Source: Gari tellinella (lineage: Eukaryota > Mollusca > Bivalvia > Cardiida > Psammobiidae). Taken from it: DNA of 64,000 bases. Location: assembly GCA_922989275.2 (NCBI GenBank), contig OV277864.1:69692158-69756157 (forward strand). Direction: 5' to 3'. A model generated the notes under the pieces. It saw only the letters and a program-made list of their open reading frames with translations, was not told where the DNA came from and ran no database searches. Shown one piece after another: positions 44,821 through 64,000 of the stretch; the first letter of the stretch is position 1; each line of letters opens with the position of its first letter. The position numbers and the translations under genes were made by a program.

Positions 44821-44924
44821 TGCAACACTAATAAAATGTTCAGTTAATATTAGAAATTACAGCAAATATAATGTAAATAATTATAATAAGAAATGAACTG
44901 GAAATAATAATGTCTTCTTCACAT

Positions 44925-45330: not shown

Positions 45331-45336
45331 AATAAA
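45331..45336 (+). terminator. second candidate poly(A) signal
   Basis: AATAAA within ATAAACAAATAAATTG, followed by the GT-rich ATGTATGTTGTT. It would make the DENND4 3' UTR about 6 kb, which is long. It is less favoured only for that reason. Confidence 0.25.
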
Positions 45337-45569
45337 TTGACATGTATGTTGTTATTTATATCATTCCATTTACTGAGGACCTCAAATGCCAAATGAACTG
45401 CATCAGAAAGAAAATTGTCTTTTGATATTGCGTGCAGTGTAGACCCAGGAGAGTCAATGCCAGGACTACCCATATGTTGCCCATAAAAATCCTAATATTT
45501 TCAAGTGATTTTAATACTCGTACATTTAACCCTTTTGCTGCCAGCCTCTATAACTTTAACATAACTATT

Positions 45570-47292: not shown

Positions 47293-47366
47293 GGTTAGAT
47301 CTAAGCGCCTCCTTCAAATCTAGGTTACTTCACAGATGCCAGCTGCCTTTGTTTTTAAAATAATCT

Positions 47367-47850
47367 TAACCCATTACCCCATAGCCTGCTTCTAGTTTTG
47401 AAGTTAGGTGACCACGTAACCCTTTCCTCCCTGAAACTTCAAGTGGACAATTTTAGTCCAGTCAATTTTTGAAATTTTAGGGTTGATTTTTACAATGTAA
47501 GCCAAAATGACAAACAGTGTAGACCCTGATCAGAGGGCTCCTTAGATGCCCTCTGATCAGGGTCTACACTGTTTGCATAGGACAACTGTACTCCTCACAG
47601 GTACGCTGTTTCCAAATGATGCATATATGCATGACTAGGGTTCACAGAGTTAAAGCAGGTTGAAAGTAAAGCAGAATGTGCCTTCAGGCGCATTCTGCTT
47701 TACTTTTTACCTGCTATAAGCTACCACCTGCTAAGGTAAAGGAAATTTTCTTCTGATATAATTCATGGCTGTATAAATTGAAACTATTTTCTTCAGGGGA
47801 GGAATGAATTAAAGGGGTAAAAATGCGTGTTTATGGGGGGAAAGGGTAAA
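47367..47850 (+). repeat. composite: M2 nested in M1, second copy
   Basis: M1 left part TTAACCCATTACCCCATAGC ... GGTGACCACG, then M2 from about 47416 (TAACCCTTTCCTCCC) to 47652 (TTCACAGAGTTAA). M1 resumes AAAGCAGGTTGAAAG and ends GGGGGGAAAGGGTAAA. The insertion point matches the copy at 14216. Confidence 0.75.
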
Positions 47851-48160
47851 TGACATTTTAAGCTGAAGAACTATAGCATGAGGGTATTGATCCTGATCTG
47901 ATCTCGATACAAACTACTGGTGAAATGAAAGTAGCTGACAATCGTAAGTACTCGGCCAACTCCGGCACCACTTCGGAATTACGGTAACCCACGAATTCAC
48001 TCCCGGTAGTGAGGATAAAAGCAAAGGGATTACGAATAACCCGGAAGTTGACCGGCGTTTCGTCGTGGACCAATCGGATCTCGACAACACACTAGCACAG
48101 GCCACGTTAGGATTCCCCATCGGTCTCGCTACTTTTCCAAGTGCAAGGCGAGAGACAAAC
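47851..48160 (+). promoter_or_regulatory. PDIA3: PDIA3 promoter and 5' UTR region
   Basis: This stretch is GC-richer than the flanks and free of hairpin repeats. It contains CCAAT at 48070-48074 and an ERSE-II-like site, and runs into the first PDIA3 codon. No TATA box is evident near the presumed start. The transcription start is not resolved. Confidence 0.55.
48064..48074 (-). promoter_or_regulatory. ERSE-II motif upstream of PDIA3
   Basis: CGTGGACCAAT is the exact reverse complement of the ERSE-II consensus ATTGG-N-CCACG, bound in mammals by NF-Y with ATF6 or XBP1. It lies 86 bp before the PDIA3 start codon. ER chaperone and PDI genes are standard targets of the unfolded protein response, so the position makes sense. 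Function in this organism is inferred. Confidence 0.6.
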
Positions 48161-48294
48161 ATGTATTTTCCAATTGTTTTACTGAGTGTCATTACACTAG
48201 CAGCATCCAGCGATGTCCTGGACTTCACAGACAGCAACTTTGCAACTGGCGTTAAAGACATGGACATCGCTTTAGTGGAGTTCTTTGCCCCATG
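48161..48294 (+). CDS. PDIA3: PDIA3 exon 1: signal peptide and start of a domain
   Basis: It encodes [17 protein letters not shown], then [14 protein letters not shown] and ALVEFFAPW. The donor GTAGGT splits the tryptophan codon of WCGHC. The C-terminal half matches the beta-alpha-beta start of thioredoxin folds. Confidence 0.93.
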
Positions 48295-51200
48295 GTAGGT
48301 GATGGGTGGGGTACAATATTTTGGCATCGCTAAAGAAAATCTACCGGTAGAATCAAAGCTTTACATGAAAGCATGAACAACATTTAAATAGTTACAAAAG
48401 TTGTATTGATATGTGGTCAAGAGTATCAGGTCAAGGACGTTTTTTCATGATACAGTTCTAAAAACTTCTGTTTTCCACAAAAAAAATCCTTCAAATTGGG
48501 CATGAATTATGATGAATATTCATCTCTAAGGCTTAATGGGTTGAGATTGACAATTGTTTTACGTAATTCAGCAATTTTTGTTTTGGCAGCTACTTGTGGG
48601 ATAGTCCACATGTGTACAGTTTTGGAACCGGCCATATCTCGTCACAATAACGCACATTTTTATGAGAGGAATTCTCCATGTCTTAATTAGTCGCAATACA
48701 CGTTGATCGACGATTCGTTCTGTTAAACATGCCTTGTTTCGCATATAATACCATCAGCTTATGTTATTATGTATGTATATATTTTATGATGATGCATACA
48801 AGTCAAATAAATTATCTGTTCTGTTCGGTGTAAAGCCCAAAAGATTTGGTTGGGCATTAAATTTCTCTAATTTCTCTCCGATGTGTACTAGCTAACGAAG
48901 GAAGGATAAAAACAACCTCACTGGACTCCGAGAGTATCTCAAAAAGTTTAAAAATGGACTAGCAGCGACAACTTTTTATATAGAATAGCGTAAGTTTTGC
49001 ATTGTCTTTATATTTAGTATTTACTTGCACTTTCATTCCCAGGTGTGGACATTGTAAACGTTTAGCCCCGGAGTACGAAAAAGCAGCTACAGCTTTGAAG
49101 AATGCAGACACACCTGTGCCTCTTATAAAGGTATGTATAAGTCCTTTGAATTACGGAAAATGTCAGCGCTGCCATTTCTCCGGATTTTTCCGAAATCTTC
49201 GGATTTTTTTCTAGTACATGATAGCTTAAAGAAGGCTGAAAGTAAAGCAGAATGCGCCTTAAGGCGCATATTCTGCTTTTCTTCCAGCCTGATTTAAGCA
49301 GCCATGTATCTAAAAAAAATAGAAACCGGCGATGGGGTAAACATACGTTTCGTAAAATCGCACTTGAAAAATGCAAATTTGGAAATCTTAAGATTTTTCA
49401 TGTCAAATTATGGTAGCCCTGAAATGTTTAAACTCATTTTCTGAGGCAGCCATACAGCCTATTATTTCTGAGGAGAGTAACAATTTCCTGGCCGCCGCAG
49501 AATTCCTACGGAGAGTTTTTTAACGTTGTACAAATGCAGATCACTTTTGTAAATGGTTTGTATCCAAATAAGAACCCAATTTGTGTGGTGCTTAACTGTT
49601 TGACACTCATTTTAGATTCAGTTGTGCAAAACTGAGGTTGAATTCAAAAACATGTTTTGTTAAATGAAGATAACAACTTTTTCTGATTTTTCTTTAATAC
49701 ATGTTTCAAATACTGTTGTCGTGTATTGATGTCCCTAGGTAGATTGTTCAGCTTCGCCAGCTTTCTGTAGAAGACTGGGTATGAAATTGTACCCTACCCT
49801 AGCAGTCTTCAGAAAGGGGGAGTGGGTTGAGGAGCTTAATAGTGAAGATGACAGTCATAAGACTGCTGGTATTGTTTCTGTGTATTTATTGATAGCGTCA
49901 AGATAAGAGGAAGTCTACTATAGATAACCCTATACTCTGTAGATACACCTTTTTACGCATTTAATTATTCATTCTTCCACTGAAGGAAATAGTTCCAGTT
50001 TTATACAGTAATAAATATGCAACATAAGAAATATTTTCTATATTCTTGCAGATGGTAGCTTTAAGCAGGTTGGAAGTAAAGCAGAATGTGCCTGAAGGTG
50101 CATTCTGCTTTACTTTAGACCTGCTTTAAGTGGTTACTTGTCTTCAAAACTGAAACAGACTATGGAGTAACGGGTTAATAAACAATTTTACTTTTTAATG
50201 TCTTCAGCAAATCACTACGATGTGACTTGTCAGATATTTCTACTGATAAATCATATTGTAGAATTTGGTAAAAACAGATTTTGATATTTGGAAAAATACC
50301 TCCCTTATCTGGCGCTGTTTGTGTTGTATCATGTTCACTATGAATCGAAATACTATCACAGGTGTATAACTCTGTCTCAAATAGAATGTCTCAAATTAAA
50401 TTCCGGTAAATTAATTGGCATGTTGTTTTGGACTGAGCAGTTTCTGTTGTATAATATATCTTAATCATTTAACCTATTAGCCAATAGCCTGTTTCAAGTT
50501 TTGAAAACGGGTTACTACATAAAGCAGGTTGAAAGTAAAGCAGAATGTGCATAAAGGCTTCTGTTTTTCTTTCAGCCAGCTTTAACCTATTACCCCATAT
50601 ATACACATATTTACACCTTTAATTATTCTTCCACTGAAGAAAATAGTTCCACTTTATATAGTCACAAAATACATCATGAAATATTTTCTTTGTTCTAGCA
50701 GATGGTAGTTTAAAGCAGGCTGAAAGTAAAGCTTTACTTCCAACCTGCTTTAAGTGTTCCCCTGTCTTCAGTACTAGAAACGGGTCATGGGGTAGTAGAT
50801 TAAGCCACCATCTGCTCAAGTAAACTCGCTTTTATCTAGACCAATGTATGTACTTATGATATTCATGTTTTTACCACTGTTAGGTTGATTGTACTGCCAA
50901 TACAGAAGTATGTGGAAAGTATGGTGTTTCTGGATACCCAACTCTAAAAATTTTCCGGGGTGGGGATTTGTCAGAGGACTATAATGGCCCACGTGAAGCA
51001 GGTATATCCATGGCAACTAAGCTTGAATAGTGCTTGTAAATCATGCTTGCTTGAATAGTGTTGTATGAAATGTTCTTTTTAAGCTTTCGGTAAGCTTGTG
51101 CATTCTATGAGATGGTCAAATAAATTATTTAGAGACATGTAATTAAAGTTTGGAGATCTGTAGAGACATGGCTGAGGACAAAAGTGATGCAAATCGAAAG

Positions 51201-53331
51201 CAGAACAGAGCTTTAGATAAGGAGAGTATTTCAAAACCTTAAATCTTTATTTCTAAACCCTATGGTGTCACTACTCGTTAGAATCGTCTCAAAATGACAA
51301 TTCTAATGAGTAGTAACACCATAGGATTTGGTGCTAAAATGAGTGAGAAAATGTTGGACTTGTTCCAATTTACTCCCTCTTATCTGGAGCCCTGGCAGAA
51401 GGGGTTGGTAGAAGCGCCTTGAGATCCTTCTATGTGGAGATGTCTCTTAGATTCAACTTCACTGTTTTTTCACAGCAGTAAATACTGGGTTGTTTAACCT
51501 TTCTTCACCTGCAGAATATTTATATACAATACTATTAACTATTATATTGGATAATAAAATATGGAATTTTTCCCTCACAAAAGTGTGCAAACTGGCAGAC
51601 AGATTCTATAAGAAAATAGTGCAGACCCTTATCAGACAGCTCCTGAAGGAGCTGTCTGATCTGGGTCTACTCTGTTTTCGAAAAGCATTAATATATTGCT
51701 TGCAGCAGTAGAATGGTTAATGTGTTCACTTACATCAGTGTTGTAGTTGTATCTATAAAACATACCATCAAATCAATATCATCACCAATATACTACCTTG
51801 CAACTAGATAGCTCAAGGCACCAGATAAGGGGAGTATTATAAAAAATCTTTATTTCTGCATTAAATCCTATGGTGTCACTACTCCTTTTCTTCCGAGACG
51901 ATTCTAATGAGTAGTAACACTATAGGATTTGGTGCTGAAATGATTTGAAATTGTTTACTCCCTCTCTAACTGGAACACTGAATGGCTAATCAGGTACAAT
52001 TAATTTTCATTTTTCGTTTTCAAAATAATGCATGTAAACCATAATCAGTGATTGAAAAGGGCGCTAGATTTAGACATAATTATGTGCGTTGTTTCCCAAA
52101 TGGTCTCAACCTTTCATTGCTTATTGTTTTACAAAGACATTTCTGTTTTTGATATATGACTGGTTTATATTGAATTTTAGAGTGTGATTGAAAAAAAATT
52201 CAGAAATTGTAAGTCAAAACAAACAATGTAGACCCTGATCAGGGTCTTAACTGTTTTCAAAGTAAAAATATACTTTGCTGTTCTAGCATTAAAATCCCAC
52301 TTATTTATAAAAAGAAATGCAAATTTAGTTTAAATACAATATATTTATTATATCCAAGCTGACAAAAATCATATAGTTATGAAAATTACTGTGTCAAACA
52401 TTATGCTCATGGTTTTATTTTACTGTTATTTACTAGATGGCATCATCAAGTACATGAAATCCAAGTCTGGACCAGCTTCCAAGGAACTCGCCTCACTTGA
52501 AGAAGCTGAAAAATTCCTGGGAAGTGCAGAATATGGGGTTGTTGGTATGTTCAACTACTTGATTCTACGCATTCAACCCTAGCGACGAGTATAGTCGTCA
52601 TTTACAAACAGTGTACATGTGAGGATTACACTTGTCCTATGCAAACAGTGTAGACCCTGATCAGAGGGCTCCTTAGTATAGTTCCAATTTATACTGTTAC
52701 AAATAAGAATCATAAGAAATATTTTCTATAGCCTAGCAGATAATAGTTTCAAGCAGGCGCATTCTGCTTTACTTTCAACCTGCTTTAAAGACATTACTTG
52801 ACAGAGCTTGGGTGGTAACACCTATCCCCGTAGAAAGCTTCAGTCAAAGCATGCAGCATGCTTTTTAACAGTACAGATGTCTAGGCAAAGAATCAGTTAG
52901 GCGTTTCATGTGAGGCCCAGACTTTATATTTAATAGTTTCATTAGTTTGGTTAGTAAACCTATTGAAAAAAAAACTTGAGTGTGATTATGTTAGGGCCTC
53001 TATAGAAAACTTGAGATTACTAACATTGGCTCATGTTTCCCATGCTTTACAGCTATTTTCTCGTGAGAACAATGAGGGGGGAATCAAGGAATGGACTGGG
53101 GTAATGTAATGTCTTTTAGTGATCAACTATTTTCAATAATAAAAACAGGCTATGGGGTAATGGATTATGTCAAAATTTCATTATATTCTACCATGTTTTT
53201 TCAGGTTTCTTTGAAAAGGGAGATGGTGATCTAGCAGGCACCTTCCAGAAAGTTGCTACTAGCCTCAGTGAAGAGATGAGATTTGCCCACACTAGTGCCA
53301 AGGAAATCAACGATAAATATGGCTTTAAAGA
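48161..53331 (+). CDS. PDIA3: PDIA3 / ERp57 protein disulfide isomerase, 5' part
   Basis: This is the N-terminal part of an ER thiol-disulfide oxidoreductase of the PDIA3 (ERp57) type, which as a family forms and reshuffles disulfides in glycoproteins delivered by calnexin and calreticulin. Exons: 48161-48294, 49043-49130, 49739-49868 or 50884-51001, 52437-52544, 53205-53331, all AG/GT and in phase (191 codons when 50884-51001 is used). Residues 1-17 form a signal peptide ([17 protein letters not shown]). W45-CGHC-K50 is the redox site of the a domain. The b domain starts near [16 protein letters not shown]. The rest of b, b' and a' lies beyond 64000. ATG 48161 is chosen because it opens the signal peptide. 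Confidence 0.92.
48295..49042. other. PDIA3 intron 1, no recognised element
   Basis: No hairpin family copy is seen. A tail-like CAAATAAATTATCTGTTCTG at 48804-48826 could be the 3' end of an old retroelement, but nothing upstream of it is recognised. Confidence 0.4.
49043..49130 (+). CDS. PDIA3: PDIA3 exon 2: CGHC active site
   Basis: Acceptor TTCCCAG, donor GTATGT. It completes W45 and encodes [20 protein letters not shown] then TPVPLIK, ending in phase 0. CGHC is the standard PDI redox motif, with the conserved K-x-L-x-P-E-Y after it. Confidence 0.97.
49164..49421. repeat. CAGCGCTGCCA element carrying nested M1, second copy
   Basis: Inverted ends CAGCGCTGCCATTTCTCCGG and TGGTAGCCCTG, with TTTTTCCGAAATCTTCGGA at left and GGAAATCTTAAGA at right. 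The inner part is the same partial inverted M1 as at 39924 (TAGCTTAAAGAAGGC, AAAGCAGAATGCGCC), ending CGATGGGGTAA. Confidence 0.7.
49739..49868 (+). CDS. PDIA3: PDIA3 alternative exon 3a
   Basis: Acceptor GTCCCTAG, donor GTATTG. 43 codons plus one base, phase 0 in and phase 1 out, exactly as exon 3b. It encodes [20 protein letters not shown] then [14 protein letters not shown]. Aligned with 3b it keeps VDC, the second Cys seven residues on, Gly88, YPTL (cis-proline loop) and FR, but changes VSG to MKL before YPTL and adds four residues at the end. It is read as a mutually exclusive alternative to 3b. An unused fossil exon is the alternative, made less likely by the open frame and intact splice sites. 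Confidence 0.72.
49869..50883. repeat. intron between exons 3a and 3b
   Basis: 49925-50177 is an inverted M1 (AACCCTATACTCTGTAGATA to GGAGTAACGGGTTAA). 50467-50585 is a forward M1 lacking its right half. 50583-50803 is an inverted M1 whose stem centre is deleted. A possible M3 fragment lies near 50260-50310. There is room for RNA pairing between exon choices, but I see no docking-selector pair. Confidence 0.6.
50884..51001 (+). CDS. PDIA3: PDIA3 exon 3b (canonical)
   Basis: Acceptor TGTTAG, donor GTATAT. 39 codons plus one base encode [20 protein letters not shown] then [19 protein letters not shown]. This matches the standard PDIA3 sequence pattern closely, including the structural Cys pair (C77, C84) and the GYPT cis-proline loop. 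Confidence 0.95.
51207..51979. repeat. two M3 elements and a GACAGCTCC palindrome
   Basis: 51207-51394 is M3 (ends TTTAGATAAGGAGAG, CTTATCTGGAGCCCTG; stem ACTCGTTAGAATCGTCTC). 51615-51676 is an M2-type palindrome around CAGCTCCTGAAGGAGCTG. 51813-51979 is a partial M3 that lacks most of its left arm. From 51980 to 52436 only a short AGACCCTGATCAGGGTCT core at 52229 is seen. Confidence 0.65.
52437..52544 (+). CDS. PDIA3: PDIA3 exon 4: [17 protein letters not shown]
   Basis: Acceptor TTACTAG, donor GTATGT. It encodes [20 protein letters not shown] then [16 protein letters not shown], the end of a and start of b. It needs the single base left by exon 3a or 3b. Read directly from exon 2 it hits TGA after six codons. 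Confidence 0.95.
52545..53204. repeat. intron 4: truncated M2 and M1 fragments
   Basis: 52568-52678 is the left part of an M2 element (CATTCAACCCTAGCGACG to AGAGGGCTCCTTAG), joined to an M1 inverted fragment at 52679-52795. A stray M1 end, AGGCTATGGGGTAATGGATTA, lies at 53147-53167. Confidence 0.55.
53205..53331 (+). CDS. PDIA3: PDIA3 exon 5: b domain [18 protein letters not shown]
   Basis: Acceptor TTTTTCAG, donor GTAAGT. It encodes [20 protein letters not shown] then [20 protein letters not shown], a close match to the b domain of PDIA3 (VVGFF, FAHT). It ends on two bases of the next codon. The following exon is not in the window. Confidence 0.95.
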
Positions 53332-53734
53332 GTAAGTAATAAGCATTGTCCTATGTGAATACTAATAGTTGTATGAAAAACAAGTTTTGTAAAAGAAAAA
53401 AGAGCTGACAAGTGAGTAAACTGAGCATTTCAAGAGTTTTCTCCTCTATGACTAAACCAAATGTCACACGTGTTAGAATCTTCTCTTTTAGACGATTCTG
53501 ATGAGTAATAACAGTATACAGATAAGAGTGAGTAAACTGAACAGATCTAACATTATGTCACTCATTTCAGCATCAAATTTTAAGGTATTACTACTATTAG
53601 ACATGGTGTTGGTGCTCTCAGTGACAAGGTTAAGGTACCATGATATATATTTAGAACTCCAAGTGCTTTAATGCTTGTGCAATTTCATGATGTATTCGTT
53701 CAAGTAAAGTATTACTGTTTTACTCCTGTTTGTT

Positions 53735-53825
53735 GCCACACTGATGATGAGTTCCTCTTTGAGCCAAAATTCCTTACTCATCTGATCTAACCCATGATCA
53801 TTAAATGATAGGACTGAAGTGTGGC
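53735..53825 (+). ncRNA. box C/D snoRNA, type A, divergent founder-like copy
   Basis: 91 nt. Terminal stem GCCACAC/GTGTGGC, box C ATGATGA (53744-53750), guide AAATGATAGGA, box D CTGA (53814-53817). The middle differs wholly from the other copies apart from GAGCC and ATGATCAT. The stem differs in sequence from the array copies yet pairs fully, which supports a real RNA. Confidence 0.85.
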
Positions 53826-54282
53826 CAAACTAAAACTTTTTGTTTGAACTGAAATATTGATAATCCACTGAAAGTCCAAGGAAGTGTGAATATCCACAGG
53901 CTCCGTTTATTTGTTGACAAATTTATTACACTCAACTAGTTCAGACCTTATTCAGGTCTTCCTTAGGAGTAATATTGAAATATTGATAAAAGGAAAGCAA
54001 GAGCCCCAGATTAGTCAAATATTTCAAAACCATCATCGTGATGTCTTTACAAAACCCATTGATGTGATTGCAACAATTCTAGTGTTCTAGTGGGTAGTCA
54101 CAACATGGGGTTTGTGGAGACATGATAAAGAAAAATTGATGTTTACACAATTTATTTTACTTGCCCCTATTTGGAACACTGTAAGCCAAAGAAAAATATG
54201 TTGTGTTGATTTATACACAAGCTTTCAAATTTATTTTCATCATCTTAAACCTTTTCTCCCATTGTCAGTTGCAGTTTGAATC

Positions 54283-54348
54283 ATGCTGAAAGTAAAACAG
54301 AAAGCTCCTTCAGGAGCTTTCTGTTTTACTTTCAGCCTGATATAAGCA
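54283..54348. repeat. hairpin, AAACAGAAAGCTCC type
   Basis: Arms ATGCTGAAAGTAAAACAGAA and TTCTGTTTTACTTTCAGCCT around AGCTCCTTCAGGAGCT. It stands alone, without recognisable element ends. Confidence 0.65.
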
Positions 54349-54498
54349 GTATATACTTTTGAGGATGCAGAATAACTTTCCTGTAGCCTTTAGTGAAAAG
54401 ACATTTCTATTGTAGAAACATTTGAGATATGGATAATTTATGGAAAGACTTTTCTATGAAGGAAAGATATAATTCAATATTAAGTATATATCCATATC

Positions 54499-54578
54499 GA
54501 CATACTCATGATGATTCATCAGAGCCTAAATCTTGAGTGATTTACAATGATCATGAAATGATAGGACTGAGGTATGTC
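54499..54578 (+). ncRNA. box C/D snoRNA, type A
   Basis: 80 nt. Stem GACATAC/GTATGTC, box C ATGATGA (54508-54514), C'-like TGATCATGA, guide AATGATAGGA, box D CTGA (54567-54570). The guide would direct 2'-O-methylation of the A in 28S UCCUAUCAUU by the D+5 rule. Middle reads CTTGAGTGATTTACA. Confidence 0.85.
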
Positions 54579-54630
54579 TAGGACTAAGAACAGTAAAACA
54601 GATGGTTAGCAGTCAATGAAATATATTCTT

Positions 54631-55022
54631 TAACCCCATTGCCCCATAAATACACGTTTTAACACCTTAAATTTATTCCTCCACTATAGAAAATAGTTCC
54701 ACTTTAAATACCTAGTCATGATTATGCAAAATAAGGAACATTTTCTATATCTTAGTAGAGCTGAAAGTAAAGCAGAATGCTCAATAAGGGGCAAGCTTTA
54801 CTTTCAACCTTCTTTAAGTGGTCACCAGGGTAACAGGTTAATGCAGACAACGGGCGGGCAAAGGTTATTCAATAATCTAGGTCCATTGTTCATTGCCAAA
54901 CATGTAAATTACCTGTACCCAAAACTGTATTTTAACAACCCGCCCATTCTGCTTTCTTTCAACCTGCTTTAAGTTGTCATCTTTCATCAAAGCTAAAAAC
55001 AGGCTATGGAGTAATGGATTAA
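54631..55022 (-). repeat. M1 copy split by an insert
   Basis: Inverted M1 starts TTAACCCCATTGCCCCATAA, with stem AAAGCAGAATGCTC. Its right part recurs at 54945-55022 after about 100 bp that begin ACAACGGGCGGG and end ACAACCCGCCC, a small GGGCGGG-ended insert. Confidence 0.5.
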
Positions 55023-55123
55023 GCAGTCGTCTTTAAGTAAGCCAGTAAATTAGAGGCTTTCTTAGTGTTTATATTTGAAGAACTAGAGTATGGGAGTTTG
55101 TTACTCTGCCTATAGTTAGTTTT

Positions 55124-55203
55124 GATATACTCATGATGATTCATCTGAGCCTAAATATTGAATGACAGACAATGATCATGAAATGATAGGACTGAGGTAT
55201 GTC
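55124..55203 (+). ncRNA. box C/D snoRNA, type A
   Basis: 80 nt. Stem GATATAC/GTATGTC (a T in the 5' arm leaves one G-U pair), box C ATGATGA, guide AATGATAGGA and box D intact. Middle ATTGAATGACAGACA. Confidence 0.83.
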
Positions 55204-55335
55204 TAGGACAAGTGAGTTTATATTTAGATTCTCTGCAGTATTTGTCGATTTATTTTGAAACCTCGTTTTCTGATATTTTTTTGTGTCAGCAGGTTTAGTA
55301 TTGTATTGAAGTATTCACAAAGTTGAAGATTTTAA

Positions 55336-55406
55336 GACCTGTGATGATTTTACAGTTTCTCTACCCCTCTGAGTTGATTCTGAGGAGAAATTCTGTGACT
55401 GAGGCA
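55336..55406 (+). ncRNA. box C/D snoRNA-like, type B
   Basis: Box C GTGATGA (55341-55347), D' CTGA in CCCCTCTGAG, C'-like TTGATTCTGA, box D CTGA (55399-55402). Candidate guides are GTTTCTCTACCCCT and GGAGAAATTCTGTGA. The terminal stem is short (ACC/GG). I do not recognise an rRNA or snRNA target. Confidence 0.6.
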
Positions 55407-55510
55407 TCAGTATTTAAGTCAGCCAGTAAATAAGAGGCTTTATTAGTGTTGATATTTGAAGATCTAGATTTCAGGAGTTTGTTTCTTTGCCTATACATGT
55501 GGTTTGTTTT

Positions 55511-55590
55511 GACATACTCATGATGATTCATCTGAGCCTAAATATTGCATGACAAACAATGATCAGGAAATGATAGGACTGAGGTATGTC
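55511..55590 (+). ncRNA. box C/D snoRNA, type A
   Basis: 80 nt, 105 nt after the type-B unit ends. All boxes, stem and guide are intact. It has ATTGCATGACAAACA in the middle and GATCAGGAAATGATAGGA (catg to cagg) before box D. Confidence 0.85.
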
Positions 55591-55668
55591 TAGGTCTAAG
55601 TGAGTTTATACTTAGATTCTCTGCAGAATTTGTCGATTTATTTTGAAACCTCTCGTTTTCTCATATAT

Positions 55669-56157
55669 TTTTATGCCCCCAGCATCGACAGATGCGGGGC
55701 ATATAGTAATCGTCCTGTCCGTCCGTCCGTCCGTCCGTCCGTCCGTGCGTGCGTCCGTAACAAGGTTAAGTAGATTTTACCGTTTCGTCTAGCATCAACA
55801 CCGCTTACCCAAATGCTTGGATACTTATACAGTTGTTGCCTTGGACCATTCCCTATCCACCAATATCACCAAACTTTGATTTTGACCTTGACCTTGACCT
55901 AATTTGGACTTAGAAAATTTTAAATAGGCTTTTTCTTGGTTAACTAGATTTTACCGTTTCATCTAGCATCAACACAACTGACTACAATGCTTTGATACTT
56001 ATACAGTTGTTGTCTTGGACCATTACCAACTAAACAATAATACCCAAGCTCAGTTTGACCTTGACCTTGACCTAATTTGGACTTAGAAAAGATTCAGAAT
56101 ATATTGTCAAGGATGCCACTGGGGGCATAAGCGTTTATTGAACGCGCAGTCTTGTTT
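55669..56157 (+). repeat. TTTTATGCCCCC repeat inserted in the snoRNA array
   Basis: Starts TTTTTATGCCCCCAGCATCG with GGGGCATATAGTAATCGTCC and a (GTCC)n run at 55716-55757. Two internal units each have ATACTTATACAGTTGTTG and TTTGACCTTGACCTTGACC. It ends GGGGGCATAAGCG ... GTCTTGTTT. The array spacer is continuous on either side (CTCATATATTT ... TGTGTCAGCAGGTG). Confidence 0.75.
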
Positions 56158-56210
56158 GTGTCAGCAGGTGTAGTATGGTATTGAAGTATTCACAAAGTTG
56201 AAGATTTTAA

Positions 56211-56281
56211 GACCTGTGATGATTTTACAGTTTCTCTACCCCTCTGAGTTGATTCTGAGGAGAAATTCTGTGACTGAGGTA
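56211..56281 (+). ncRNA. box C/D snoRNA-like, type B
   Basis: Identical to the 55336 copy from GACCTGTGATGA to GACTGAGG. Here GGTA follows box D, so the stem gains a pair (ACC/GGT). Confidence 0.6.
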
Positions 56282-56379
56282 TAAGTTTTTAAGTCAGCCA
56301 GTAGATAAGAGGCTTTCTTAGTGTTTATATTTGAAGATCTAGCATTCTGGAGTTTAATTCATTGCCTATAGTTAGTTTT

Positions 56380-56459
56380 GACATACTCATGATGATTCAT
56401 CTGAGCCTAAATATTGAATGACAGACAATGATCATGAAATGATAGGACTGAGGTATGTC
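56380..56459 (+). ncRNA. box C/D snoRNA, type A
   Basis: 80 nt, starting 169 nt after the start of the upstream type-B unit. Consensus form: stem GACATAC/GTATGTC, ATGATGA, ATTGAATGACAGACA, AATGATAGGA, CTGA. Confidence 0.87.
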
Positions 56460-57110
56460 TAGGACTATGTTATGCATTATGCAGTCACCTGTCTTTAAAG
56501 ATCTACAGGCTACAGTATTCAATGGTCCCTTATTTACAGGTTTGACTTCTGGTATTATTTAGAGCTGACGGCATTTTAAAGTTGAACTCAAGGGAGGTAA
56601 CTCGTTTTGTGCAACATTTTGTCAGAACTTCTTGAAATCATGTATAAAATGTAAATTCCACTGTAGATTTTCATTTTTGTGACTAGTAGAATTAAGTTAT
56701 ATCTATTTAATAAGAGTAAAATTAGTGTATGTTAAACAGCTAGATTTTTTGTAATTTGAGATTTAGTGACTTTTTCAGAATTTGATTTTTTTTAAATCAT
56801 TGATATTTCCAGAAAATATGTCATGAAATATTTTTGTTTGCACAATATCTTATAGTCTCTGTACAGTTTACTTGAATATACAGAAATTATTGAGTTATAT
56901 CATTTTATAAAGAAAATATTCCTGTTCATTAAAAAAGGAGCTTTCCTCGACAAATGGTCCTGTCAGAAAAAAACGGCACTGTAATTTTTTTTCTTTTAAT
57001 GGTTTTTCACTCTCCATATGGTATATTTCAATTTAATCAAGGTTTCAAAGAATTCTGACACGGAATAAGCTGACCCGCGAACCACCTTAAAAACAGACTT
57101 TCATGTTCAG
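56460..57110. other. AT-rich spacer, no recognised element
   Basis: This 650-bp stretch breaks the regular spacing of the array. It holds long A/T tracts and no snoRNA box pair, hairpin family or open frame that I can support. Confidence 0.4.
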
Positions 57111-57233
57111 GTTTTGACTGTTGTTAGCATCAGTATTCAAGTCACCCAGTGAAGAAGAGGCTTTATTAGTGTTGATATTTGAAGATCTAGATTTCTGGAG
57201 TTCGTTTCTTTGCCTATACATGTGGTTTGTTTT

Positions 57234-57313
57234 GACATACTCATGATGATTCATCTGAGCCTAACTATTGAATGACAAACAATGATCAGGAAATGATAGG
57301 ACTGAGGTATGTC
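57234..57313 (+). ncRNA. box C/D snoRNA, type A
   Basis: 80 nt, intact boxes and stem. Middle ATTGAATGACAAACA with GATCAGGAAATG, like the copy at 55511, so these two and their flanks (GCCTATACATGTGG) belong to one subgroup. Confidence 0.85.
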
Positions 57314-57449
57314 TAGGTCTAAGTGAGTTTATACTTAGATTCTCTGCAGAATTTGTCGATTTATTTTGAAACCTCTCGTTTTCTCATATATTTTTTGTGT
57401 CAGCAGGTGTAGTATGGTATTGAAGTATTCACAAAGTTGAAGATTTTAA

Positions 57450-57520
57450 GACCTGTGATGATTTTACAGTTTCTCTACCCCTCTGAGTTGATTCTGAGGA
57501 GAAATTCTGTGACTGAGGTA
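57450..57520 (+). ncRNA. box C/D snoRNA-like, type B
   Basis: Same sequence as the copies at 55336 and 56211 through box D, followed by GGTATAAG as at 56211. Confidence 0.6.
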
Positions 57521-57618
57521 TAAGTTTTTAAGTCAGTCAGTAAATTAGAGGCTTTCTTAGTGTTCATATTTGAAGATCTAGCATTCTGGAATTTAATTCA
57601 TTGCCTATAGTTAGTTTT

Positions 57619-57698
57619 GACATACTCATGATGATTCATCTGAGCCTAAATATTGAATGACAGACAATGATCATGAAATGATAGGACTAAGATATCTG
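57619..57698 (+). pseudogene. type-A snoRNA with destroyed box D
   Basis: Box C, middle and guide are intact, but box D is CTAA and the 3' stem strand is GATATCT in place of GTATGTC. Without box D it should not form a stable C/D particle. Confidence 0.7.
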
Positions 57699-57744
57699 TA
57701 GATCTAGCATTCTGGAGTTTAATTCATTGCCTATAGTTAGTTTT

Positions 57745-57824
57745 GACATACTCATGATGATTCATCTGAGCCTAAATATTGAATGACAGACAATGATCAT
57801 GAAATGATAGGACTGAGGTATGTC
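57745..57824 (+). ncRNA. box C/D snoRNA, type A
   Basis: 80 nt consensus copy, offset 126 bp from the broken copy at 57619. The intervening flank (GATCTAGCATTCTGGA ... TAGTTAGTTTT) is repeated too, so this is a local tandem duplication. Confidence 0.87.
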
Positions 57825-57947
57825 TAGGACTATGTTTATATTTAGATTAGAAAAATAAAGATGGATGGATGAGTTGAAAATAAAGACATATTTTCTTCAT
57901 TGTCAGTATTAGGGTAATGAAATTTGCAGAATTTGTCAATTTACATA

Positions 57948-58096
57948 GCACCAGATAAGCGTAGTTTTTCAAAAACTAAAATCATTATTTCTGAATTAAA
58001 CGATTCTAATGAGTAGTAACACCATAGGATTTGGTGCTGAAATTAGTGAGAAAATGTTTGATTTGTTGAAATAACTACGTCTTATCTGGAGCCCTG
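57948..58096. repeat. M3 element lacking its left stem arm
   Basis: Starts AGCACCAGATAAGCGTAG and ends CTTATCTGGAGCCCTG. Only the right stem arm ACGATTCTAATGAGTAGTAA remains. Confidence 0.65.
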
Positions 58097-58194
58097 TATT
58101 TAGTATGACACCTCTCGTGTTGTGGCTTGGTTTGTGTTGGCTTGTATACCATAGTTGTTTTGAATTGAAGTATGCACAATGTTGAAGATTTGAA

Positions 58195-58263
58195 GACCTG
58201 TGGTGATTTTAGTTTCTCTTCCCCTCTGAGTTGTTTGTGAGGAGAAATTTTGTAACTGAGGCA
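58195..58263 (+). pseudogene. type-B snoRNA-like unit, decayed
   Basis: Box C is GTGGTGA instead of GTGATGA. ACAG is lost after the box, and box D is preceded by TTTTGTAA. The rest aligns with the other type-B units. Confidence 0.5.
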
Positions 58264-58274
58264 ATTCTATTGAA

Positions 58275-59025
58275 CAGGGCTCCAGATAAGAGGGAGTAAA
58301 CTGAACAATTCCAATATTTTCTTATTTCAGCACTAAATCCTCATTAGTGAACATATACAATAACTTTTTGGGCTGCTATTATGAGGCATATTTATAAATG
58401 TTGAGTTAGCCATAATCTCATGTGTGATCCAGGTCTGATATGTAGTTGGAGCCAAAACTTCTGTATGGGCTGCTGGTCTGTAGGAAAAAATGGATCTACA
58501 CAACTTTATATTGATCCTCAAGTATGCTCAGTGTTGTCTTCAAAAACATATGTGATAGCTCCAGCAAGTGGGTCCAGGTCAGATTTAGTGCCATACCGAT
58601 ATGTCTCGGGCTACTGGTCTATCTATGATCTGGATCCTCTAGCTATGCAAAAACTTTTAAATTTTATTATTTAACATAGTATTGCATAAAAATATATTTT
58701 TAACTATGATTATACTTATGATCTCACCTTATAGAAAGCTTTTATAGGAGTCTCTTATAGAAGTCTCTTAACTATTTTAATGCATATTTTATTACAGATT
58801 GTTTGTTTAAATTGTTACTGGATAATCTTGTTATGACGGACAATAGCTTAAAGCTAGTGTTAATATGTTTGACTGAAACCGACTATAAATAAAGATTATC
58901 TTATCTTATCTTATCTTATTAGAATCGTCTCGAAGAGACGATTCTAATGAGTAGTGACACCATAGGGTTTTATGCAAAAGTAAAGATTTTACGTTTTGAA
59001 ATACCCCCCTTATCTGGAGCCCTGT
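58275..59025. repeat. M3 element split by a retroelement-like insert
   Basis: M3 left end GGGCTCCAGATAAGAGGG runs to 58341 (CACTAAATCCT). The right stem and end resume at about 58918 (TTAGAATCGTCTCGAAGAGA) through CTTATCTGGAGCCCTG. Confidence 0.65.
58342..58919 (+). mobile_element. insert with TTATC-repeat tail, LINE-like 3' end
   Basis: About 580 bp ending AATAAAGA then a TTATC repeat (58892-58919), the kind of short tandem tail seen on some non-LTR retrotransposons. An 84-codon frame at 58420-58674 has no family I recognise; it could be the end of a retroelement ORF. Confidence 0.45.
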
Positions 59026-59375
59026 ATTGAATGACAACACAATCTGAATACTTTACTCGGTCTCAATACTCCATTGATTTTTGATATGCCTTTAATTTAT
59101 CCATCCACTGACGAAAATAGTTTCAATTTGTACTTTCACTCTGTGCATATTAAGAAATGTTTTCTATAAACGAGAAGATGGTAAATTAAAGCAGCTCAAA
59201 TTTATAATGTAGGTTTGCAAATTATACACTTAAAAGTCATGTCTGTATGGTTTAAAAACAGACTTTCATGTTCAGGTTGTGACTGTTGATAGCATCAGTA
59301 TTTAAGTCACACAGTAAGGAGAGGCTTCCCTAGTGTTTATATTTGAAGAACTAGAGTTCTTGAGTTGGTAGTTTT

Positions 59376-59455
59376 GACATACTCATGATGATTCATCAGA
59401 GCCTAAATCTTGAGTGACAAACAATGATCATGAAATGATAGGACTGAGGTATGTC
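59376..59455 (+). ncRNA. box C/D snoRNA, type A
   Basis: 80 nt, intact stem, boxes and guide. Middle CTTGAGTGACAAACA with ATCAGAGCC after box C. It lies in the first unit of the 500-bp duplication. Confidence 0.85.
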
Positions 59456-59875
59456 TAGGACTAAGTTTGTTATGCAAAAGTAAAGATTTTACGTTTTGAA
59501 ATACCCCCCTTATCTGGAGCCCTGTATTGAATGACAACACAATCTGAATACTTTACTCGGTCTCAATACTCCATTGATTTTTGATATGCCTTTAATTTAT
59601 CCATCCACTGACGAAAATAGTTTCAATTTGTACTTTCACTCTGTGCATATTAAGAAATGTTTTCTATAAACGAGAAGATGGTAAATTAAAGCAGCTCAAA
59701 TTTATAATGTAGGTTTGCAAATTATACACTTAAAAGTCATGTCTGTATGGTTTAAAAACAGACTTTCATGTTCAGGTTGTGACTGTTGATAGCATCAGTA
59801 TTTAAGTCACACAGTAAGGAGAGGCTTCCCTAGTGTTTATATTTGAAGAACTAGAGTTCTTGAGTTGGTAGTTTT

Positions 59876-59955
59876 GACATACTCATGATGATTCATCAGA
59901 GCCTAAATCTTGAGTGACAAACAATGATCATGAAATGATAGGACTGAGGTATGTC
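59876..59955 (+). ncRNA. box C/D snoRNA, type A, exact duplicate
   Basis: Identical to the copy at 59376, exactly 500 bp downstream. Confidence 0.85.
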
Positions 59956-60138
59956 TAGGACTAAGTTTGTAGTATGATTAAAAAATAAAGACAAATTTTC
60001 TTCATTGTCAGACAGTCTAAGGGTTATGGACGTGCAGTATTTGTCAATTTTTTTTGAAACCTCTTGTGTTGTGATTTGGTTTGTGTGAGCAGGTGTTGTT
60101 GATTTTAATTGAAGTATGCCAAATGTTGAAGATTTGAA

Positions 60139-60206
60139 GACCTGTGATGATTTTAGTTTCTCTACCCCTCTGAGTTGTTTGTGAGGAGAAATTCTGTGAC
60201 TGAGGC
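60139..60206 (+). ncRNA. box C/D snoRNA-like, type B, shorter form
   Basis: Box C GTGATGA and box D CTGA are intact. ACAG after box C is missing, and the C' region is TTGTTTGTGAGG. The downstream partner is displaced by a transposon. Confidence 0.55.
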
Positions 60207-60274
60207 ATTATTTTAAGTCAACCAGTAAAGAAAAGGCTTTCTTAGTGGTCTTTGCTATTTGAATTTGAAGTTCT

Positions 60275-60517
60275 GGGGCCCGTTTCATAAATCTTCGTAC
60301 GACAGATGTTGTCGTAAGTCATATTATTAAAGTCTCAATTATTATTTATTTCCCCTTCTAATCCAGTCTTGTGACATCTCTTTCGAATCGTCTTGAAAAG
60401 ACGATTCCAAAGAGATGTAACAAGACAGGATTAGATTGAGAAATCAGAAATTAAATGTATTTTAAAGTTTTGACTTACGACAACATTCGTCATACGAAGG
60501 TCTATGAAACGGGCCCC
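60275..60517. mobile_element. MITE with GGGGCCCGTTTCATAAA ends
   Basis: Inverted ends GGGGCCCGTTTCATAAATCT and GGTCTATGAAACGGGCCCC. Inner arms CTAATCCAGTCTTGTGACAT and TGTAACAAGACAGGATTAG, and a CGTCTTGAAAAGACG centre. It is 243 bp, without a coding frame, and splits a type-B/type-A snoRNA pair. Confidence 0.8.
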
Positions 60518-60549
60518 TGGAGTTTGTTTCTTTACTTACAATTAGTTTT

Positions 60550-60629
60550 GACATACTCATGATGATTCATCAGAGCCTAAATCTTGAGTGATTTACAATG
60601 ATCATGAAATGATAGGACTGAGGTATGTC
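60550..60629 (+). ncRNA. box C/D snoRNA, type A
   Basis: 80 nt, intact. Middle CTTGAGTGATTTACA, as at 54499. It would sit about 168 nt from the type-B unit at 60139 if the MITE were absent. Confidence 0.85.
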
Positions 60630-60742
60630 TAGGATAAAGCGAGTTTATATTTAGATGATCAATAAAAGAAAAGGCTTACTTTAGTGTTTATATTTGAAGA
60701 TCTAGCATTCTGGAGTTTAATTCATTACCTATAGTTAGTTTT

Positions 60743-60822
60743 GACATACTCATGATGATTCATCTGAGCCTAAATATTGAATGACAGACAATGATCATGA
60801 AATGATAGGACTGAGGTATGTC
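60743..60822 (+). ncRNA. box C/D snoRNA, type A
   Basis: 80-nt consensus copy with ATTGAATGACAGACA. It follows the previous copy by only 113 nt, the closest intact pair in the array. Confidence 0.87.
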
Positions 60823-61074
60823 TAGGATAAAGTGAGTTTATATTTACAGTAAAAAATAAAGATCAAGTAGAGAATTGCTCAGATTTGCACTGTAGTTTTG
60901 CAAATTATGCATTTGTCTCTGTCTGTATGATTTGAACCAGACTTTCATATTCAATGTTTTGATTGACTGATGTTAGCAACAGTATTTAAGTCATCCAGTT
61001 AAGAAGATGCTTTCTTAGTGTTGATATTTGAACTTGAAGTTCTGGAATTTATTTCTTTGCCTTCAATTAGTTTT

Positions 61075-61154
61075 GACATACTCATGATGATGTATCAGAG
61101 CCTAAATCTTGTGTGACAGACGATGATCATGAAATGATAGGACTGAGGTATGTT
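61075..61154 (+). ncRNA. box C/D snoRNA, type A, diverged middle
   Basis: 80 nt. Stem GACATAC/GTATGTT (one G-U pair), box C ATGATGA followed by TGTATCAGAGCC, middle CTTGTGTGACAGACG. Guide and box D are unchanged despite the other substitutions. Confidence 0.8.
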
Positions 61155-61488
61155 TTGGACTAAGATTTCTGAAGTCTTGTGTCTGCTTATAAGATAATTA
61201 AAGCCTTCTGACTTATTTTGAAGATAGTCAACTATACTTCAAGTAGGCCGAAAGTAAAGCAGAATGCATCTTAAAATGCCACTTTGTAGGACAACGAACT
61301 ATTTTCCTATGGTGCATACTCATGATAATATAAACTATTTTCTTCAGTGGAATGATAAATCAAAAGGCATAAAACGGCATATTTATGATGTAAAGGGATT
61401 ATGCAAGTGTTGAGAAATGGTTGCAACAATGCAGTTTTCAAACAGTTCTTGTTTATGAATTAGAGGATAGATACACAGGAATTGGTTT

Positions 61489-61568
61489 GACATACTCATG
61501 ATGATTCAACAGAGCCTTTATCTAAAATGATTTACAATGATCATGAAATGATAGGACTGAGGTATGTC
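61489..61568 (+). ncRNA. box C/D snoRNA, type A, diverged middle
   Basis: 80 nt. Middle TTTATCTAAAATGATTTACA is the most changed of the 80-nt copies and the 5' flank is unrelated to the others, yet stem, box C, guide and box D are intact. Confidence 0.83.
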
Positions 61569-61595
61569 TAAGTGTAAGAGGAAGTCCAGCTTTTG

Positions 61596-61846
61596 TTAAC
61601 CCTTTGAACCCTAGTCCCGCAAATAGGCGTTCTTTTCAAACAATGTACATGTGAATAGTACAGTTGTCCTGTGCAAACAGTGAAGACCCAGATCAGAGGG
61701 CTTCGAAAGGAGCCCTCTGATCAGGGTATTCACTGTTTTGTCATAATGCCAAACATTGACAAAAACAACCCTTAAAAGTCAGAAATTGACTTGACTAAAT
61801 GGAAACTGGAATTGTCCATTTAAAGTTTCAGGGAGGAAAGAGTTAA
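61596..61846 (+). repeat. M2 element, full copy
   Basis: TTAACCCTTTGAACCCTAGT to GGGAGGAAAGAGTTAA, central palindrome AGTGAAGACCCAGATCAGAG / CTCTGATCAGGGTATTCACT. It is close in sequence to the copy at 23490. Confidence 0.75.
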
Positions 61847-61856
61847 TATAGACATT

Positions 61857-62069
61857 TAACCCTTTACCACATAGCCTGTTTCTAGTTATGGACACAGGTG
61901 ACCAACAACTAAAGCAGATTGAAAGTAAAGCAGAATGTGCCTGAGCCTGCTTTAAATTACCATCTGCTAGAATATATATATCTTCTTATGATACATATTC
62001 ATGTCTGTATACATTGGAATAACTTATATGCATAAAAATGCTTATCTTGCTTATCTATGGAGTAATGGG
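61857..62069 (+). repeat. M1 copy with collapsed stem
   Basis: TTTAACCCTTTACCACATAGC to ATGGAGTAATGGGT. The stem keeps AAAGCAGAATGTGCC but jumps directly to GAGCCTGCTTTAA. Confidence 0.6.
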
Positions 62070-62284
62070 TGAGAAGAAAACATTAGCAATTTAACAGTCA
62101 TTCACACAGATTCAAGGCACCTAGGAAAGATCGCCTACTATTGTATAGTGTATACTAAAACTAGCTATAAGTCGTCGTCAATTTTGACAGCATGTTGGAT
62201 AAATGACTGTTTATATGAGATACGGTACTTACCTTATCCTGAGATCAGTATTTGCAGTGAAGAAGAATTGAAATGAATATTGAA

Positions 62285-62355
62285 GACCTGTGATGATTTT
62301 ACAGTTTCTCTACCCCTCTGAGTTGTTTCTGAGGAGAAATTCTGTGACTGAGGCA
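62285..62355 (+). ncRNA. box C/D snoRNA-like, type B
   Basis: Box C GTGATGA, ACAG present, C' region TTGTTTCTGAGG, box D CTGA. It is intermediate between the two type-B subgroups, and its type-A partner starts 170 nt downstream. Confidence 0.6.
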
Positions 62356-62454
62356 TCAGTATTTAAGTCACCCAGTAAAGAAAATGCTTACTTTAGTGTT
62401 TATATTTGAAGATCTAGCATTCTGGAGTTTAATTCATTGCCTATAGTTAGTTTT

Positions 62455-62534
62455 GACATACTCATGATGATTCATCTGAGCCTAAATCTTGAATGACAGA
62501 CAATGATCATGAAATGATAGGACTGAGGTATGTC
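62455..62534 (+). ncRNA. box C/D snoRNA, type A, last copy in window
   Basis: 80 nt, intact stem, boxes and guide. Middle CTTGAATGACAGACA combines the two common variants. More copies may follow beyond 64000. Confidence 0.86.
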
Positions 62535-62832
62535 TAGGACAAATTTTTTCTGTAGACTGTGCTTGCTTATCAGATAAAATAAGCTTTCTGTCATGACTTG
62601 TTTTGAGGTAACTACTTCAAGTAAGCAGAAATGAAGCATAATGAGCCTTAAGCTGTCATTTTGTAGGATTAAAAAAATATTTTCCCATGGCGCAAAATGA
62701 TTATATAAAATGGAGCTATATTTTTCGGTGGAGGAATAAATTAAATGCATCAAATGTATATTTATGGAGTAAAGGGTTAAGATACAGGTGATGAGAAATG
62801 GTTGCAGCATGAGATTTGTGAGTGATACAGAT

Positions 62833-64000
62833 ACAGTAAAACATCGGAAAAACGAACACCCTCCGGACCAGGTAAAAAGTTCGGTTTTCTGAGGTGTTCG
62901 GTTTTCTGAGTTGTTCATGAATCAGTGCTAACATTCAGGCTGAGGCATCTTTACAGACCAGACCTATAACTCAATAACATGACCGTAACAGTGAATTCTC
63001 ATCTAGATCAAAACTGTTTGATAGAATGATCAAGAATGAGAATGAACTTTCAATACGACAGAGCATTTTTAACAATAGCTCAATAATTATTTACCGTCTT
63101 TTGCCGCGTATAATGTGCACTCGTGTATTCTCTGTATTTTATGTGTTAAATCACAAGATATAAACGTATTCCCATAGGTAAGAAGCATCTGTGTTTTGAA
63201 ATAAACACTTCAATTTCTAGATTGTCGCAACCATTATAAAACGAAACAACCGCCATAGTTTTAACTTTTAATGGGCTTACTTTATTCGCATTTCGAGCAG
63301 CACATTATTCTATGGAAGTTCGTAGATTCAGTATAATCAAGAACGTTTCCGATTTTGCGAATATGTCGCGAAAGGAAATTTTGCTGTGCAAATCGAGTGT
63401 TATTGGATTAACAAAATGAGCGGTTGTTCATACAGTAAGACTTTGCTTCTACAACACACTCATTCAGTACGCAATTGCAAACAATAATTATGAAATATAA
63501 CTGAGATATTTCCTTTCTTTCTGTCTTCAGAATGCCGTACTGAACTTTAAAAAATTTGAATTCTAAACAGTAAAATGTTCCGACGTACTTCGAAACAAAC
63601 TACGAACAACGGAACGCATTTTTGTTGCTGTAGCATAGTCAGATCAGAGCCTTATTTTTATCAGCAATCGTGTGTCACAACCGTGAAATACACGTGTCAT
63701 CTCCAATAAACACCCCACCCATTACGCAATCTTAACACATTACGCTAAGTGTCCCAGACGTGTTTGACGGTCGACTCAGTTGAATAAATTTGCCATGATC
63801 GCAATGGTGAAATTAGAGACGCGAGGTGACAAAATACAGTGAATGTTCGGTTTTCCGAGGTAATTTTATGTTTATTTGAACATTTTGGGCAGAGAAAATC
63901 GTTCAGTTTTCGGAATTCTGAGGTTCCGGTTTTCTTAGACTTACTTTTGGTTAAAATAAGAAGGGAAAAAATCGGGACCGGACAGAAAGTTCGGTATTCC
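62833..64000. mobile_element. TIR element, CAGTAAAACATCGGAAAAAC end, runs off window
   Basis: Left end follows TA and reads CAGTAAAACATCGGAAAAAC with GAACACC and TTCGGTTTTCTGAGGTGTTC. Near 63840-64000 similar TTCGGTTTTCCGAGG and TTCTGAGGTTCCGG motifs appear inverted, with AGAAAGTTCGGTATTCC at the very edge. TA and CAGTAAAAC suggest a Tc1/pogo-type element. No transposase is readable. Confidence 0.5.

Follow-up and report, generated by a model that had tools for sequence, protein, structure and literature searches.

Twenty copies of a probable box C/D snoRNA gene in a single PDIA3 intron of the bivalve Gari tellinella

What are the repeated box C/D-like units that lie in one intron of the PDIA3 gene of the heteroconch bivalve Gari tellinella, and what might they guide? 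We analysed a 64,000-nt stretch of DNA (the window), in which an earlier note had described 15 same-strand copies of such a unit at 53735-62534, fourteen of them 80 nt long. All 15 copies of this unit, here called snoRNA A, were present on the + strand, with a stem-to-stem span of 80 nt in fourteen copies and 91 nt in the first. The cluster continues beyond 62534, the end given earlier: five more copies (64072-66038 from box C to box D, in window-extended coordinates) lie just past the window end in the same intron. The host gene had been rightly recognised as PDIA3 (match to human ERp57 3f8u, E 3.4e-156), and its 13,756-nt intron holds all 20 copies. These are probably tandemly duplicated sense box C/D snoRNA genes that guide methylation of an A in 28S rRNA. 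The features are:

53205..53331, + strand, PDIA3 coding exon upstream of the host intron
53332 to 67087 (window-extended), host intron, donor GTAAGT, acceptor TTTCAG
53735..53825, + strand, snoRNA A copy 1, 91 nt, most diverged, stem GCCACACT/AGTGTGGC, two compensatory stem changes relative to the other copies
54499..54578, + strand, snoRNA A copy 2, boxes and stem intact
55124..55203, + strand, snoRNA A copy 3, intact, one stem change C-G to U-G
55511..55590, + strand, snoRNA A copy 4, intact
56380..56459, + strand, snoRNA A copy 5, intact, fold z -2.33
57234..57313, + strand, snoRNA A copy 6, intact
57619..57698, + strand, snoRNA A copy 7 (57628), degenerate, box D CTAA, 3/8 stem pairs broken
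57745..57824, + strand, snoRNA A copy 8, intact
59376..59455, + strand, snoRNA A copy 9, in unit 1 of a perfect 500-bp tandem duplication
59876..59955, + strand, snoRNA A copy 10, in unit 2 of the same duplication
60550..60629, + strand, snoRNA A copy 11, intact
60743..60822, + strand, snoRNA A copy 12, intact
61075..61154, + strand, snoRNA A copy 13, intact, one stem change G-C to G-U
61489..61568, + strand, snoRNA A copy 14, intact
62455..62534, + strand, snoRNA A copy 15, last in the window
Past the window, snoRNA A copies 16-20, box C at L001:72, 449, 592, 1051 and 1976 (stem damaged at 72, box C damaged at 449)

The units have the boxes and the kink-turn terminal stem of box C/D snoRNAs. 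Box C ATGATGA (consensus RUGAUGA) was found in 19 of the 20 copies and box D CTGA (consensus CUGA) also in 19, with both in 18. In the window, the earlier note was correct for box C (15/15) and for the guide AATGATAGGA (15/15), but its constant box D holds for 14 of the 15 copies, the exception being the CTAA of copy 57628. The terminal stem, which had been given as 7 bp, comprises 8 bp in the kink-turn register after a 3-nt bulge, mostly as seven Watson-Crick pairs and one G-U. Over the 20 copies, 155 out of 160 stem cells held standard pairs, against 26-82 when the partner was slid by 1-3 nt, and in copy 1 the pairing survived the replacement of a T-A by a C-G pair and of an A-T by a C-G pair. 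Boxes and stem were intact in 17/20 copies, while the other three carried damaging changes. The C' box ATGATCA was invariant in the 19 same-length copies and also present in copy 1; no constant D' box was found.

It had also been stated that stem, boxes and guide vary less than the rest, and they do, except that a GAGCC block outside them (in the 5' half, 3' of box C) was equally invariant, in 20/20 copies. Among the 19 same-length copies, the invariant columns were 11/11 in the guide and 7/7 in C' against 2/223 in the flanks, a comparison that was ungapped and thus exaggerates flank variation. The conservation does not extend past the RNA ends.

We compared these arrangements with shuffled sequence. 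The pattern ATGATGA-N50..75-CTGA matched 15 times in the window (14 copies of snoRNA A and one unrelated minus-strand match at 10340), with a mean of 1.83 and a largest value of 6 in shuffles. A stricter C/D grammar including the stem gave 18 matches on the + strand of 84 kb, all of them snoRNA A, and 0 on the - strand, against a mean of 0.05 (maximum 1) on both strands of 100 block shuffles. An exact C'-guide-box D motif, with zero mismatches permitted in fixed positions, matched at least 19 times in the 1.6-Gb assembly, on one strand and with all 19 at the PDIA3 locus; these counts may be lower bounds, diverged copies elsewhere would escape such a search, and the twentieth copy was missed because of its mutated box D. 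An origin as a dispersed mobile element was ruled out by the absence of the exact motif elsewhere in the assembly, with the same reservation on exact matching and lower-bound counts. A tandem or mobile repeat resembling a snoRNA by chance could draw on the embedding of the copies in larger duplicated units and on the Rfam result, since the check that had been proposed gave 0 matches at the gathering threshold, whether for 44000-64000 or for the window as a whole. We consider it extremely improbable, given the excess of grammar matches over shuffles, the compensatory stem changes and the confinement of the exact motif to one locus.

At E up to 10, Rfam gave 46 matches on 53000-63000. Those on snoRNA A and on a second element of the intron (element B, below) were weak matches to C/D families, such as snoR21 (up to 28.3 bits, cut-off 45), snoR77Y (up to 26.4, cut-off 52), SNORD25, SNORD34 and ceN53, and represent generic C/D signal. 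SNORD49 (U49) was not among the 46. The top-scoring matches at this E value (microRNA models and a leader) fell on inverted repeats.

The guide AATGATAGGA, which is invariant and adjoins box D, complements 28S UCCUAUCAUU over 10 nt. The target is present in L022, a degenerate 590-nt fragment and the one piece of 28S-derived sequence found in this genome, and its letters UCCUAUCAU(U) are also in the Rfam eukaryotic LSU consensus, so that the conserved 28S complement of the earlier note was borne out. A 47-nt 28S pattern search gave no match, and a 40-nt 28S pattern gave 0 matches in viral contigs. The rRNA complement next to box D of methylation guides is about 10-21 nt long; the 10 bp found here lie at the short end of this range and are short for a methylation guide. 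By chance, ~5.6 kb of rRNA should hold 0.005 Watson-Crick matches to a 10-mer, and 8 out of 1000 shuffled guides hybridised as well as the real one. The C' region carries a second, 8-nt complement, ACAATGAT, which overlaps the same 28S stretch, so the pairing register could differ. A strand of a 28S helix ends just before the target A, which is the first base left unpaired; we take this A to be near the peptidyl-transferase centre, and the Rfam structure line places CGGCUCUUCCU within the helix.

Two listed yeast sites, m5C2870 and Um2921, lie 17 nt upstream and 34 nt downstream of the D+5 nucleotide, and counting from listed modified sites places that nucleotide at yeast A2887 and human A4434, and not at yeast A2946, the snR71 site given in the earlier note. 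Guides of the snR71/U29/AtU29 type are likewise C/D guides that act on an A of this 28S region, but their target (yeast A2946, human A4493) lies 59 nt downstream in both numberings. The earlier reading is partly supported: a multi-copy intronic C/D snoRNA with a 28S complement holds, the identity of the site does not. In the portions available to us of modification lists presented as complete, A2887 is absent for yeast (PMC5199042) and A4434 for human (PMC6182160), so that the spot is not known as modified in either; the equivalent A is also absent from the corresponding portion of a Dictyostelium list. By its absence from these three lists, the D+5 site points to a new methylation or a chaperone role, with no known methylation duplicated, and from its sequence snoRNA A predicts a new 28S 2'-O-methylation site. 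No paper linking a snoRNA with A4434, Am4434, A2887, A4464 or A3349 was found in the open-licence literature, which is weak evidence of absence.

The 28S sequence complementary to GAGCC, GGCUC, lies one nucleotide upstream of the target, and of the 1024 possible 5-mers only 6 would have a 28S complement so near to it (within 2 nt). Judged on this complementarity, GAGCC is possibly an accessory guide. Yeast U18 and snR13 have a further segment that pairs with rRNA beside the target (PMC5389607, as far as available); according to the legend of Figure 2A there, that segment lies in the C'/D' motif, whereas GAGCC lies 3' of box C.

Under the preferred explanation, each copy would yield an RNA of ~80 nt with a single clear guide, adjoining box D, that would pair over 10 bp with UCCUAUCAUU and steer fibrillarin to 2'-O-methylate the A at D+5. 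GAGCC may add five base pairs with GGCUC, one nucleotide upstream of the target, by which the helix strand would be opened. The anatomy, the copy number, the pattern of conservation, the complementarity to 28S and the restriction of the exact motif to this locus are observed; we infer transcription, maturation, methylation and this accessory pairing. Two points speak against this explanation. According to the part seen of one study, some snoRNAs able to pair with rRNA leave the endogenous site unmodified (PMC8522698), and end-trimming alone poses a problem as a way of releasing many snoRNAs from a single intron.

Arrays of tens of tandem near-identical C/D snoRNAs in one transcription unit occur at SNORD115/SNORD116 and SNORD113/114, where each intron of a non-coding host carries one copy and most guides are orphans; snoRNA A, in contrast, has 20 copies in one intron of a protein-coding gene and an rRNA match. 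Human SNORD49A and SNORD49B are two C/D snoRNAs in one SNHG29 intron (PMC9622897, seen in part) and resemble snoRNA A in sharing an intron, with a predicted target, 28S C4426, 8 nt upstream of A4434. They differ in that target, in copy number (2 vs 20) and in their non-coding host as opposed to PDIA3. No bivalve or mollusc snoRNA cluster in PDIA3 or in a single intron was found among the listed open-licence titles and abstract starts, nor any match for multi-copy intronic snoRNAs in the open-licence literature; both are weak evidence of absence.

Several readings of a genuine snoRNA array have to be weighed. The damaging changes in 3/20 copies and the perfect 500-bp tandem duplication, which starts at 58970 and carries copies 9 and 10, would suit a recent neutral amplification with one or two working copies and the rest as undecayed passengers. 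This we find unlikely, although compatible with the preferred explanation, as the 80-mers of 19 copies fall into 14 different sequences, which differ mostly outside the boxes, guide, GAGCC and stem, and as the flanks are far more diverged than snoRNA A itself. Genuine C/D snoRNPs on the same 28S segment might instead act as chaperones that help the helix strand CGGCUCUUCCU to fold. GGCUC and UCCUAUCAUU can both be covered by pairing with the two invariant blocks, CGGCUCUUCCU is helical in Rfam, and the site is missing from the three modification lists as far as these were available. Plain antisense pairing, however, needs neither a guide that abuts a canonical box D in methylation register nor an invariant C', and we rate a chaperone role as slightly less likely still.

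The intron might also be freed as a long snoRNA-capped RNA of the sno-lncRNA type, a scaffold or sponge with up to 20 snoRNPs and few individual mature snoRNAs. Such snoRNA-ended RNAs can arise when introns that carry two snoRNAs are trimmed (PMC11028025, in the part available), and this intron holds 20 copies. A scaffold would not demand a guide unchanged in every copy, and the sequence between copies is largely unconserved, which makes this account improbable.

A more far-reaching version of the preferred explanation, which we offer only tentatively, is a new methylation of the bivalve lineage at the equivalent of human A4434, presumably near the peptidyl-transferase centre, where AATGATAGGA and GAGCC would form a two-part guide unzipping the helix strand. 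Amplification to 20 copies within one intron of PDIA3, an ER chaperone gene, would tie guide dose to PDIA3 expression, and a release route for multiple snoRNAs would be part of the system. If true, this lineage would have an rRNA modification of its own beside the catalytic centre, with about twenty copies of the guide; dose control of rRNA methylation would be testable within one animal group, and the locus would reveal if a single animal intron can give rise to many mature snoRNAs.

Finally, element B is a second C/D-like element, with 9 copies in the same PDIA3 intron:

55341..55402, + strand, element B copy 1, box C to box D, sub-threshold Rfam C/D families
56216..56277, + strand, element B copy 2
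57455..57516, + strand, element B copy 3
58200..58259, + strand, element B copy 4, box C GTGGTGA
60144..60203, + strand, element B copy 5
62290..62351, + strand, element B copy 6
Past the window, three further copies of element B, box C at L001:275, 880 and 2528

Its k-turn stem has 2-3 pairs only; two of the nine copies were folded and, at z -0.38 and 0.61, showed no advantage over shuffles. The best complements of its guide to the 590-nt 28S fragment were two 7-mers, with ~1.6 expected by length alone, and we assign element B no target. The element B 7-mer AATTCTG lies 16 nt downstream of the snoRNA A target site.

All 15 box C/D snoRNA-like copies of the earlier note (unit A) were confirmed at the coordinates given there; they lie on the + strand of the window. 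We detected five further copies before the next PDIA3 exon in 20 kb of downstream sequence (the adjoining stretches L001 and L002), and thus all 20 copies share one intron. By our reading, the reading frame is preserved across this intron. The features of the locus are the following (numbering continued past the end of the window where needed):

53332-67087: PDIA3 host intron, 13,756 nt, donor GTAAGT, acceptor TTTCAG
58970-59969: perfect 500-bp tandem duplication, one snoRNA copy per unit
55341-66589: nine copies of element B, a second C/D-like unit, interspersed with unit A copies in the same intron

The host protein, with its exons joined by hand, matched PDIA3/ERp57 of PDB (3f8u, E 3.4e-156). 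Among the 120 relatives listed, the best was a JGI protein (74%), and the best with a species name were clams (Mercenaria, 71%; Dreissena, Mya and Mactra, 68% each), which places the species among the heteroconch bivalves. We also observed an exon-like stretch at 49739-49906, preceded by AG and open up to a stop at 49904, whose translation is 43% identical to a human PDIA3 segment that is also matched by the exon at 50884; it is possibly a diverged alternative exon or a pseudo exon of PDIA3.

We scanned 84 kb for box C followed by a box D some 35-105 nt downstream, with 5 or more stem pairs in kink-turn register. All 18 matches were on the + strand and in the unit A family, whereas 100 block-shuffled sequences averaged 0.05 matches and never had more than 1. 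The two copies that escaped the scan have a mutated box D (57628, named by box C position) or a mutated box C (64449). The stem was paired in 155 out of 160 cells, compared to 26 to 82 with the partner shifted by 1-3 nt. Two double compensations set copy 1 apart from the others, and broken pairs were found in copies 64072 (two) and 57628 (three). Unit A is almost certainly a real C/D snoRNA cluster.

The pattern ATGATCANNAAATGATAGGACTGA, with no mismatches allowed, had 19 matches in the 1.6-Gb assembly, all at the PDIA3 intron locus and on one strand, while its reversed control had none; these 19 and the box-D mutant make up the 20 copies. The family expanded through local tandem duplication, with many duplicated units in common, including the perfect 500-bp duplication, by which the array grew recently.

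The 19 copies of equal length comprise 14 distinct 80-mers. They are identical in all 11 guide columns, all seven C' columns and GAGCC, and 2 out of 223 flanking columns are invariant in this comparison without gaps, which inflates flank variation. When the 15 copies in the window were aligned with gaps, the boundaries of conservation were similar. In the RNA interior, 33 out of 52 columns are invariant and include all 11 guide columns (hypergeometric probability 0.003, columns assumed independent). Copy 1, strongly diverged elsewhere, retains GAGCC, ATGATCA and AAATGATAGGA.

We did not find functional rDNA in the assembly, where a 47-nt 28S pattern had no matches with up to 2 mismatches. A shorter pattern had one exact match, within the following feature:

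L022 (a stretch of contig C12), 1201-1760: degenerate 28S rRNA fragment, part of the A-loop missing, Rfam LSU 347-378 bits

Since this is the sole match of the 28S pattern, the assembly may lack the rDNA array. The fragment shares UCGGCUCUUCCUAUCAUU with the Rfam eukaryotic LSU consensus. Immediately adjoining box D, AATGATAGGA and UCCUAUCAUU form 10 bp between the unit A guide and the fragment (chance expectation 0.005 in 5.6 kb), and 8 out of 1000 shuffled guides hybridised equally well to a 60-nt 28S segment. The C' region holds a second complement of 8 nt, ACAATGAT, overlapping the same 28S stretch. By the D+5 rule, the nucleotide predicted to be methylated is the A. Its distances to modified positions identify it as yeast A2887 (17 from m5C2870, 34 from Um2921) and human A4434 (m5C4417, Cm4426, Psi4427, Psi4441, Gm4464, Um4468, Gm4469), those to Um4468, Gm4469 and Um2921 being counted through general 28S letters for the A-loop part that the fragment lacks. 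Yeast A2946, the snR71 site proposed in the earlier note, lies 59 nt away and is not the predicted target. The Rfam structure line assigns CGGCUCUUCCU to one strand of a helix, helix 90, with the target A as the first unpaired base that follows. This A corresponds to E. coli A2518, near the peptidyl-transferase centre. Judged by sequence, unit A is probably a methylation guide for the equivalent of 28S A4434. This nucleotide is not among the modified positions in the tables of PMC5199042 (yeast A2887) and PMC6182160 (human A4434), and the table of PMC8817022 lists Dictyostelium Cm3212 and Um3254 with none between, where the equivalent A would be about 3220.

GAGCC, kept in 20 out of 20 copies, is complementary to 28S GGCUC, whose end is separated by one nucleotide from the target of the guide; 6 out of 1024 5-mers could fall by complement within 2 nt of the target and 37 out of 1024 within 20 nt. 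According to PMC5389607, extra base-pairing beside the target raises methylation for yeast snR13, while that of the U18 element has no role in efficiency. The block could instead serve intramolecular pairing, as in the fold of one copy, where GCCU paired near the AGG of the guide. In copy 1 the block reads GAGCCA, with which the pairing to 28S is preserved and the intramolecular pairing becomes weaker. We give about even chances to GAGCC being an accessory pairing with 28S.

Element B carries box C GTGATGA in 8 out of 9 copies and box D CTGA in all nine, and its conservation declines at the RNA ends. Its stem has 2-3 pairs, the two copies folded gave no fold signal, and its C/D matches in Rfam were all sub-threshold. 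It is probably a second, orphan C/D RNA with no target assigned. All function of unit A and element B is deduced here from their sequences.

When one intron holds two snoRNAs, its trimming can leave long RNAs with snoRNA ends, according to PMC11028025. Twenty copies in one intron would either have to be cut apart or be released as a very long RNA studded with snoRNPs. Inverted repeats lie between snoRNA copies at 54285-54335, 58920-58950, 60355-60442 and 61676-61738, and three out of the four match microRNA or leader models in Rfam; they are possibly foldback repeats, or cleavage sites separating the copies.
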